From positions 1-32,630 of the forward strand of contig JASJYH010000022.1 of NCBI GenBank assembly GCA_030123675.1: DNA of 32,630 nucleotides. The letters run 5' to 3'. This document shows, in pieces, positions 13,987-17,750 of this stretch. The stretch comes from Anaerolineae bacterium (lineage in GTDB: Bacteria > Chloroflexota > Anaerolineae > Anaerolineales > Villigracilaceae). Every line of letters starts with the position of its first letter. Positions within the stretch are counted from its first letter, which is position 1. The position numbers were made by a program, and so were the translations under genes. The notes under the pieces were generated by a model. It was not told where the DNA came from. It did no database searches and saw only the letters and a list, made by a program, of their open reading frames with translations.

Positions 13987-16197
13987 TCAAGAGATGACTG
14001 TCAATTTTGCCAGTGAGGCTGCCAGGCGTTTAATGCCGACGCTTTCGAATACCACTTCGACAATTTCTTCGTCATCCTGGATCCGGCTGTTGAGCACGAT
14101 GCCTTCACCCCACAGCGAGTGCTGGACCTTAATCCCAGCCCGGTATTTGCTTTCGATAACGGAAGCAGATATAGGGTTGGTACGTTGCGTTCCTGCACCT
14201 CCGTCCGGAACATGCCAAAGGGTTTCCCCGGCCTGTCTTGGTCCCGTGCGGGCTTTGCCGATCATTAGGTCAGATGGGATGTCGTCCAGAAATCGGGAGG
14301 GGTATGTTTCTTCAGCATAACCGCGCCCGCCGCGCTGCACGGATCGAACCAGATAGAGTTTGTCTTTGGCACGCGTGATACCCACATAGAACAGTCGGCG
14401 CTCCTCTTCCATTTGTTCAGGTTCGTCAAAGGAGCGATTGTGTGGAAGCAAACCGTCATCAAGACCAATGATGAAAACCACACCGAATTCCAACCCTTTG
14501 GCAGCGTGCAGAGTAAGCAAGGTTGGTGCGTTGACGGTTTCGGTCATAGTGTCCTGGTCCGATATCAAGGCCACATCTTGCAAAAATTCCTCCAGCGTCC
14601 GGGTGGCGTAATCTTGGGTGAGGCGCCGCAATTCAGTCACATTTTCCCAACGTTCAAGGCCTTCTTCAGTGCCATCCTCAAGATATTCTTTGTACCCAAT
14701 ATCGCCGGCAATACGGTCAAATAGTTCTGTGATAGTTAGGGTCTGAACTGCAACTCTCCAGTTGGCGAGCATTACACCAAAATCTGCGAGGGAGATAGCT
14801 GCGCGGTTGCTAAACTGCTGCCAATAAGCACTGTCGGACCCGCCTGCCAGATCAAGGATCAGCGCGCCAAGGGTTATTCCCACCGATTTTGCAGCCGTGT
14901 TAAGCGACATAATGCTCTTGCTTCCGATGCCGCGCGTAGGCACATTTATTATGCGGTTAAGGCTGGCTTCATCATTGGCGTTGTACGCCAAACGCAGATA
15001 CGCGATCATATCTTTGACTTCACGCCGCCCATAGAAGCGCTGCGCGCCGACCAACCGGTATGGCAGACGAGCCTGCAAAAATGCTTCTTCGAGTAAGCGA
15101 GATTGCGCATTGGTGCGGTACATCACAGCGCAATCTCCGGGTTCGAACTGCTTACTGGCAACCAGCTGTGCAATGGTATCTACAATGAAGGCAGCCTCAG
15201 CGTAATCATCAGGGGCTTCATAATAGAAGAGCTTCTCACCTTCACCCCGTTCGGTAAATAATTTCTTACGACGGCGATTACGAGCGCGGTCGATGACCGC
15301 CATAGCAGCATCCAGAATGGTTTGCTGCGAGCGGTAATTCTGTTCCAGCAGAATCACTTGCGCATCTGGGTAATCTTGCTCGAAGCGCTGCACGTTGCGC
15401 CAGTCAGCCCCGCGCCATGCATAAATCGATTGATCGGGATCTCCAACTACAAAAATATTCTTATGTGCCGAAGCCAGGTGTTTGATCAATGAGTACTGCG
15501 CAATGTTTGTATCTTGGAATTCATCAACCAACACGTGCCTGAAACGCTGGGCATATTTCTCTCGAATTTCCGGGTTATCTTCCAGCAGACGCGCAGCGTA
15601 AACCAGCAGATCGTCAAAATCGACTGCATTGCTAGCGATCAAGCGTTTTTGATACTCAATGTAAACACGCTTTACCACTTCATCACGATATGTAGCTGTT
15701 GGGTAATTATCCGCACTTATTAACTCATTTTTGGCACTGGAAATCGCTGCGTGCACTCTGTGCGGCCGATATAATTTATCATTCAAATTCATTTCACGGA
15801 CGATACTCTTAACCAGTCGCACCTGGTCGTCGGCATCGAAAATTACGTAGTTGGCCTCAATAGGCAAAAATCCCGCCTCGGAGCGCAGGATGCGCGCACA
15901 AATGGCGTGGAAGGTACCCAACATCATGCCATCGACTGTATTCAACGCAAGCCCTTGTGAGGCTAGTTCTCCCAGGAAGTCATCCACCCGTGATTTCATT
16001 TCACGCGCAGCTTTGTTTGTAAAGGTGACAGCCAAGATTTGATACGGACGTACGCCTTTAGATGCGATCAAATAAGCGATTCGTTGCGTTAGCACACGCG
16101 TTTTCCCCGACCCTGGGCCTGCTAGCACCAAAACCGGTCCATCCCCCGCTGAAACAGCTTGGCGTTGTTGATGATTAAGTTGTTCTAAGAAGTCCAT
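13987..16197 (-). CDS. pcrA: ATP-dependent DNA helicase PcrA/UvrD
   Basis: This superfamily 1A 3'-5' DNA helicase acts in nucleotide-excision and mismatch repair and in clearing recombination proteins. At 736 aa it has normal PcrA length. Visible motifs are LNHQQRQAV (Q-motif), Walker A AGPGSGKT with K32, AVTFTNKAAREM (motif Ia), VDEFQDTN (motif II), GDPDQSIYAWRGA (motif III), LLEQNYRS (motif IV), LTLHAAKGLEFGVVFI (motif V) and EEERRLFYVGITRAKDKL (motif VI). The C-terminal HSLWGEGIVL...VVFESVGIKRLAASLAKL is the PcrA C-terminal domain that contacts RNA polymerase. The ATG at 16197 has no good ribosome binding site. The gap upstream carries a probable mscL remnant on the same strand. It ends only 29 bp after the second MITE-like copy's target duplication. 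Confidence 0.96.
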   Translation of the reverse strand: MDFLEQLNHQQRQAVSAGDGPVLVLAGPGSGKTRVLTQRIAYLIASKGVRPYQILAVTFTNKAAREMKSRVDDFLGELASQGLALNTVDGMMLGTFHAICARILRSEAGFLPIEANYVIFDADDQVRLVKSIVREMNLNDKLYRPHRVHAAISSAKNELISADNYPTATYRDEVVKRVYIEYQKRLIASNAVDFDDLLVYAARLLEDNPEIREKYAQRFRHVLVDEFQDTNIAQYSLIKHLASAHKNIFVVGDPDQSIYAWRGADWRNVQRFEQDYPDAQVILLEQNYRSQQTILDAAMAVIDRARNRRRKKLFTERGEGEKLFYYEAPDDYAEAAFIVDTIAQLVASKQFEPGDCAVMYRTNAQSRLLEEAFLQARLPYRLVGAQRFYGRREVKDMIAYLRLAYNANDEASLNRIINVPTRGIGSKSIMSLNTAAKSVGITLGALILDLAGGSDSAYWQQFSNRAAISLADFGVMLANWRVAVQTLTITELFDRIAGDIGYKEYLEDGTEEGLERWENVTELRRLTQDYATRTLEEFLQDVALISDQDTMTETVNAPTLLTLHAAKGLEFGVVFIIGLDDGLLPHNRSFDEPEQMEEERRLFYVGITRAKDKLYLVRSVQRGGRGYAEETYPSRFLDDIPSDLMIGKARTGPRQAGETLWHVPDGGAGTQRTNPISASVIESKYRAGIKVQHSLWGEGIVLNSRIQDDEEIVEVVFESVGIKRLAASLAKLTVIS

Positions 16198-16262
16198 AAG
16201 TACACAGGGAGTAGCGAACAGTCGTGAGCAAGACTATTATCAACACTCTAATCATCCATTCT

Positions 16263-16319
16263 CTAAAGTTCGAAGGCCAGATCAAGTACATTACCCCGCA
16301 TGACAAATTCTTTAATCAT
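16263..16319 (-). pseudogene. mscL: 5' remnant of a mechanosensitive channel gene (mscL)
   Basis: On the minus strand AAAGGAGATAAG is followed by an ATG at 16319 and the 18-residue frame MIKEFVMRGNVLDLAFEL, then TAG. The MscL family begins (M)xKEFKEFxMRGNVxDLAVGVIIG, so residues 1-15 match its highly conserved N-terminal helix with one KEF triplet missing. After DLA the reading frame ends at once and no later part of MscL is found before pcrA. The best reading is an internal deletion that left the ribosome binding site and first codons. An alternative is a genuine tiny leader peptide with a chance resemblance. Confidence 0.6.
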
Positions 16320-16624
16320 CTTATCTCCTTTAAGGGGGTAACAGAGGGACCCTTATTCTATTTTACTGCTTCTTGTTTAAATTCGTGATAATTGAGCGAT
16401 CAATTCATGAGTAAATAACAAATATTAAGGTTCAGGTTTTTACGCAGCATACAGTAGGAAAGGAAGCCTGTCAACAAATTTGAATAAATTCCCTATAATC
16501 CCACTCCAATTATGCTTATTTCACTTGTGACGGACAGATAAGGTGCCTAATTGATTATTATTCAAATTATTTTTGTGGTAGTATTTTAATTGGTAAGACA
16601 AGTGGATTTAAATAGAAATCCTAA

Positions 16625-16709
16625 GGTATCACACTTTACTTTTAAATGAAGTATTCTTGACTAAAATAAAGATTGAACCTTTTTATATAAACTTCAAATA
16701 AGTGATACC
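16625..16709 (+). promoter_or_regulatory. Promoter region of the peptide transporter cluster, framed by an inverted repeat
   Basis: GGTATCAC (16625-16632) and its exact complement GTGATACC (16702-16709) are 69 bp apart, and allowing two extra bases extends the match to ten. Between them TTGACT (16657-16662) and TTTTAT (16681-16686) lie 18 bp apart as a candidate promoter. This suggests paired operator half-sites, possibly for DNA looping, ahead of the gene starting at 16761. A further TATAAT at 16494-16499 is possible but lacks a good -35. The rest of 16320-16624 is AT-rich with no gene seen. Confidence 0.45.
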
Positions 16710-16760
16710 CATATTGCACATGCCATTTGTTTCAGCCTCTTTAGACAGAAGAATAAGGTT

Positions 16761-17750
16761 ATGCCTGACCTGTTACTAGATGTTCAAGGTCTTAATACCC
16801 AATTCAAGACATCCGATGGTGTTGTACATGCTGTAAATGGGGTTTCGTTCAATCTTCGGGAGGGGAAAACTTTAGCTATTGTGGGGGAAAGCGGTTGTGG
16901 CAAGAGTGTGACTATGCTCTCCCTGCTTAGCCTGATACCGTCACCTCCCGGGCAAATTACTGCTGGGAAAGCCATATTTTATAATCGCGATTTGCTAAAG
17001 CTCTCCAACGAGGAAATTCGTTCCGTACGCGGGGCTCAAATCGGGATAATATTCCAAGATCCGATGACGTCTTTGAATCCGGTATTGACTATCGGTTTTC
17101 AACTGGCAGAACCATTAATCCTGCATCTCGGTATGACCAAGGTGCAGGCCAAATCACGAGCCGCTGAACTACTTAGTATGGTGGGTATTCCAAATCCAGC
17201 TGAACGTCTAAATGATTATCCTCACCAGTTTTCAGGTGGTATGCGCCAACGCGTAATGATCGCAATGGCAATCTCTTGCACTCCCCAAATATTGATTGCA
17301 GATGAGCCAACCACCGCGCTAGACGTGACCATCCAAGCTCAGATTGTGGATTTGGTTAAACGCTTACGTGATAAATTGGGCATGGCAATTATCTGGATTT
17401 CTCATGACTTGGGTGTAGTGGCCGGTATTGCTCATCGTGTAATAGTAATGTACGCTGGTCTAATTGTTGAAGAAGCAGGGGTCAATGATTTGTACGCCAA
17501 TCCGCAGCACCCTTATACGATTGGGTTGCTGGGCAGCCTGCCGCGGGTGGATGAAAAGGAGCATCAACGCTTGGTTTCCATTGAAGGTTTGCCCCCAGTC
17601 TTATATGCACACCCAAAGAGTTGTCCGTTTGCGCCACGCTGTAAGTGGGCGGTTGAACGATGCTGGAATGAAAACCCGGTTCTTGAGGAGATCGAAGCCG
17701 GGCATCGCGTGGCTTGCTGGGTTGATGTAAATACAGGCAAAGAACGCTAA
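16761..17750 (+). CDS. oppD: Peptide/nickel-type ABC transporter ATP-binding protein (OppD/DppD family)
   Basis: This is one of two ATPases that drive import of peptides or related solutes through the OppBC-type pore. At 329 aa it has normal length. It shows Walker A GESGCGKS (42-49), a Q-loop region [10 protein letters not shown], the signature FSGGMRQRV, Walker [14 protein letters not shown] and the switch [12 protein letters not shown]. The C-terminal oligopeptide/dipeptide transporter domain has the Cys set [15 protein letters not shown]...ACW, which in some members binds an Fe-S cluster. The ATG has a weak AAGG site. The stop overlaps the oppF start by one base (TAATG). Symbols are by family and the true substrate is unknown. 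Confidence 0.93.

Follow-up and report, generated by a model that had tools for sequence, protein, structure and literature searches.

A remnant of mscL in front of pcrA marks a gene loss in a member of the Anaerolineales

Is a short open frame in front of a DNA helicase gene the residue of a lost channel gene, or a leader that has been kept for the gene behind it? We have analysed a stretch of DNA of 32,630 nucleotides (the window). It constitutes contig C119 in the 2.83-Mb draft assembly of an uncultured bacterium of the Anaerolineales lineage (204 contigs, 94.4% complete). The species is represented by this one genome, and the genus by two members, this genome and the one referred to here as G001. 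The frame lies at positions 16319..16263 on the minus strand and consists of 18 codons and a stop (ATG ATT AAA GAA TTT GTC ATG CGG GGT AAT GTA CTT GAT CTG GCC TTC GAA CTT TAG), with the translation MIKEFVMRGNVLDLAFEL; when the frame was sought on the plus strand, nothing was found there. The first-pass annotation had taken it for the first 18 codons of mscL, the gene of the large-conductance mechanosensitive channel, behind an intact Shine-Dalgarno site and 65 bp upstream of pcrA, and had proposed either a recent deletion of mscL or a preserved regulatory stub feeding into pcrA.

The likeness to the conserved N-terminus of MscL proved to be real. The 10-residue core VMRGNVLDLA scored 37.1 bits with a profile built on 37 relatives, whereas the second-best place in the six frames of the window scored 9.6 bits and 40 shuffled windows scored at most 15.8 bits. 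In a Pfam scan, for which the frame was padded with two alanines to reach the 20-residue minimum, it matched MscL (PF01741) and no other family with E=0.0015, below the curated cut-off, as expected of so short a piece. The Shine-Dalgarno site is indeed intact; AAGGAG (16330..16325, minus strand) is located 5 nt 5' of the ATG, and AGGAGG/AAGGAG-like sites are found at the same place in the relatives. Based on the sequence, the alignment with G001, the profile score, the Pfam match and the standing of the frame as the sole match in its own genome, the stub at 16263..16319 is a real mscL remnant.

The position of the remnant is that of mscL in the family. On its 3' side lies pcrA (13987..16197, minus strand), assigned from synteny and from its UvrD-helicase, UvrD_C and PcrA/UvrD tudor domains in Pfam; its start was confirmed, 65 bp downstream of the remnant stop on the same strand, as had been claimed. 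At the same position G001 carries a full mscL of 131 codons, which ends 66 bp before a pcrA about 80% identical to that of the window, and a divergent transporter gene upstream of the locus is common to both genomes. More broadly, mscL immediately precedes pcrA, in the same orientation, in 21/21 sampled family genomes with both genes, and likewise in the named genomes that we examined, and full copies were found there in the sampled genomes with an intact locus; in more distant families the adjacency is absent. The gene is present in 134/152 family genomes (82/88 of those of good quality). An independent 18-codon gene without mscL history was also considered, and is ruled out by synteny together with the C-terminal match described below. 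No relevant paper on an mscL-pcrA operon was found in a literature search.

The genes of this locus vary in several other ways among the relatives. Nearly all mscL-pcrA spacers of the family contain a strong hairpin, the sequence of which is specific to the lineage (over 38 spacers, median z about -4.5 with mononucleotide shuffles, e.g. L041, L069, L045 and L074). The 65-bp spacer of the window is without it (z about 0), and an account by deletion neither needs nor explains this. In 13/43 relatives, including L064, L067, L069, L073, L074, L076 and L048, TATAAT occurs 6-15 nt before the ATG of pcrA (1.4% in shuffles), which suggests, from its position, a leaderless pcrA transcript in those 13 lineages. 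The pcrA genes of G018, G003, G008, G019, G024 and G069 are interrupted near residue 256 by an in-frame insert, and that of G018 (C5, L233:680-3937) matches Hint and intein-splicing domains and is an intein. In G124, mscL (C171, 6845-7156) is cut short by a stop codon that follows residue 97, so that the C-terminal tail is gone and the membrane part is left.

When the remnant is compared with the G001 gene, it is shorter by 113 codons, and two deletions account for its form. Rather than the first 18 codons, as had been annotated, the frame begins with 15 N-terminal codons of mscL, interrupted by a gap of three, and passes without a change of frame into the last codons and the stop of the gene (MIKEF---VMRGNVLDLA, then ..EL*). 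The three missing N-terminal codons are seen in the comparison of AAAGAATTCAGAGAATTTGTC in G001 with AAAGAATTTGTC in the remnant. This 9-bp deletion falls between two near-identical AGAATTY repeats, represented by GAATTT in the remnant; 10 residues precede RGN in 37/37 intact relatives scored, and 7 in the remnant. The second deletion is internal, removes about 330 bp and extends from just past DLA to just short of the EL-stop. The DNA at and after the junction (GAACTTTAGAGAA...) aligns with the 3' end of the G001 gene (GAGCTTTAGAGAA...), and the proteins end in FEL* in the remnant and TSEL* in G001. The exact junction is uncertain, because the relatives have S where the remnant has F in front of EL; this F may be a changed S or a leftover of the LAF in the middle of the protein (GLAF in G001). 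Both deletions preserve the frame. A literature search for mscL pseudogenes found nothing on point.

With a fragmented draft of 204 contigs as the source, the assembler might have joined the two ends of a gene that is complete in the genome. Assemblers seldom make such a join without a repeat of about assembly-word length, and the G001 gene has no repeat between the two junction ends. In addition, the same stub carries the separate 9-bp deletion, the promoter has also changed, and the missing middle of mscL is nowhere else in the assembly. Considering these points together, we regard a misassembly as extremely improbable. With one genome sampled, the deletion could in principle be polymorphic in the population of the species. 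A further copy was sought in the 94.4% complete draft, where the MscL profile PF01741 had no match and the G001 MscL protein matched the stub and nothing else. On the other hand, four MscS-family matches are left in this genome; accordingly, the cell is not without osmotic valves.

The codons that remain tell something of the timing. Over the 15 codons shared with G001 there are seven synonymous differences and one non-synonymous difference, and the sole differing residue, I at position 2, also occurs in 4/37 intact relatives. This ratio suggests that selection probably maintained mscL through the greater part of the period since the split from the G001 lineage and that the loss would be recent on that scale. 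The proposal of a recent mscL deletion thus agrees with the full orthologue in place in G001, with the absence of another copy in its own genome and with the pattern of substitutions.

Upstream of the remnant, the promoter region holds a second change. In 35/38 distinct relatives a strong promoter-like pair precedes mscL, usually TTGACA-17-TA[GC]AAT with about 34 nt between it and the ATG; a score as good was reached by 0.5% of shuffles. In the window the family-conserved -35 box TTGACA is found at 16469..16474 and the original -10, TAGAAT, at 16355..16360, both on the minus strand; the latter, identified from the alignment with G001 and the join of the flanks, has been displaced downstream of an insertion. 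The insertion is a 93-bp repeat (TACTGTATGCTGCGTAAA...AAGAAGCAGTA, 16364..16456, minus strand, both TA copies counted), which sits within the 17-bp spacer between the two boxes. Full or partial copies occur elsewhere in the same genome (C98, C151, C185, C133 and others), in G001 (C125) and on many contigs of G010, and about 46 left ends were counted in the window's own genome against 0 for a reversed control pattern. The termini are TACTGTGTGCTGCGTAAA...TATGCAAGAAGCAGTA, that is, TACTG...CAGTA ends with an imperfect longer inverted repeat. Some copies, which may represent a longer form, contain additional internal sequence. In G001 the empty site reads TTTCC-TA-AAATAGAATA, and the window has TA on both sides of the repeat, a comparison made at this one site. 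When the flanks are joined with one TA, the 17-bp spacer is restored and matches the empty site; therefore, the element is a TA-duplicating insertion resembling a miniature inverted-repeat transposable element (MITE). A transposase sharing its ends was sought in the draft assembly and only a weak IS630-type (DDE_3) fragment was found; draft assemblies often lack mobile elements. A literature search for such elements in Anaerolineae found nothing on point.

The insertion brought with it a candidate replacement for the displaced box. TATGCT, from the left end of the repeat (16446..16451, minus strand), stands exactly 17 bp from the old -35, which is the original spacing. Of the promoter-like pairs within 450 bp upstream of pcrA, TTGACA-17-TATGCT ranks first, with 10/12 consensus positions. 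At the place of TATGCT most copies of the repeat have TGTGCT, and TATGCT is present in 3/46. From its motifs and spacing, a hybrid promoter is likely; a literature search for MITE hybrid promoters returned only general papers. These features bear on the idea that the insertion itself drove the loss by cutting the promoter, so that mscL was silenced and the unused gene decayed. In its favour, the element entered precisely the spacer that separates the two conserved promoter boxes, and the G001 locus does not have it. However, the promoter that it left is a good one, and the copy in the window differs by 16% from the consensus of the other copies in the genus against one amino-acid change in the mscL codons, which suggests that mscL was in use after the insertion; this divergence is a weak clock, as other copies differ as much. 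The two further losses described next also had no such insertion, and we consider a loss driven by the element unlikely.

At least two further losses of the gene have occurred at this position within the family, in G043 and G069, the only family genomes without mscL that have enough sequence before pcrA to judge; G020, G021, G022, G139, G053, G097 and G098, also without mscL, were left out because the contig breaks off close to pcrA or the start of pcrA is absent. In G043, TTGACA-17-TACAAT has been kept with only the C-terminal zinc-ribbon tail of MscL, which has no start in that frame. In G069, TTGACA-17-TAGAAT and a Shine-Dalgarno-like sequence have been kept with no mscL codons. None of the three losses removed the promoter or pcrA. 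A -10 of its own just before pcrA was sought, and no clear one was seen in the window, G001 or G043; G069 has one with 5/6 positions. The promoter may have been retained in the three losses, which are few cases, because pcrA uses it, and in the window pcrA probably relies at least partly on the mscL promoter.

Does pcrA also make use of the 18 codons, as the suggestion of a preserved regulatory stub implies? The frame would then be selected as a translated leader that tunes pcrA expression, and it does have an intact ribosome binding site, has stayed open through two frame-preserving deletions, differs from G001 mostly at synonymous sites and precedes a pcrA without an evident Shine-Dalgarno site. 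However, few non-synonymous changes are equally expected from a recent loss, and 65 nt is a long gap for translational coupling. The leader from the stub to pcrA folds into no structure beyond chance (z=+1.4), and an Rfam scan of 16100..16800 gave one match only, below the gathering score. Above all, the losses in G043 and G069 kept the promoter and no N-terminal frame, and a stub of this kind is not conserved across the lineages that lack mscL. We therefore hold a selected leader to be very unlikely. Much the same doubt applies to a wider form of the idea, in which the promoter, the -10 derived from the element and the 18-codon translated leader would have been co-opted together as a new control region of pcrA; if it were true, an osmotic-valve gene would have been turned into the leader of a DNA-repair helicase.

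We consider it very probable that the frame is the residue of a recent mscL loss, and that its leader persists because the loss is young and pcrA probably uses the promoter. The ancestor would have had the order still seen in the relatives, namely promoter, mscL, short spacer and pcrA. The first step would have been the entry of the 93-bp element at a TA in the promoter spacer, giving the hybrid promoter. Later, the internal deletion of about 330 bp and the separate 9-bp deletion between GAATTY repeats would have removed almost the whole of mscL and spared the promoter together with the ribosome binding site, 15 codons of the N-terminus, and the last codons with their stop. Ribosomes probably still translate this short frame, and the 18-residue product would be meaningless. 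Besides its youth, the remnant may be protected by its surroundings, since pcrA would suffer from any deletion that extended into the promoter or into pcrA itself. This reading retains the recent deletion of the first-pass annotation. New to it are the in-frame joining of the N-terminal codons to the C-terminal end of mscL, the separate loss of 9 bp near the start, the MITE-like insertion between the promoter boxes and the continued presence of four MscS-family matches.

In this family, mscL and pcrA are a conserved pair under one conserved promoter. The locus provides a clean natural example of the loss of a widely conserved osmotic safety valve, in which the ancestral layout, the empty site and independent losses can all be compared. 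It also indicates that members of this Chloroflexota family can occasionally do without mscL, presumably since MscS-type channels remain.

In comparison with known systems, the element in the promoter resembles TA-duplicating MITEs, the non-autonomous kind of IS630/Tc1/mariner elements, in being short (about 93 bp), non-coding and dispersed in many copies, and in its TACTG...CAGTA terminal inverted repeats and the TA duplication relative to the empty site; it differs from them in that its inverted ends are imperfect and that no transposase with shared ends was found. With MscL (PF01741), the remnant shares the start, the KEF..MRGNVLDLA signature, the C-terminal EL-stop, the ribosome binding site, the promoter and the genomic position. 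A functional channel has two transmembrane helices and forms a pentameric pore, whereas the 18 residues left here end right after the N-terminal signature; both helices have gone, together with the periplasmic loop and the greater part of the C-terminal tail, and no channel is possible. Like pseudogenes left by deletion, the remnant is a truncated homologue that occupies the ancestral locus, where the relatives have intact orthologues, and there is no second copy; unlike them, it is still an open frame, as both deletions kept the frame, and it has kept its translation start. The remnant is an ordinary but unusually legible gene loss.
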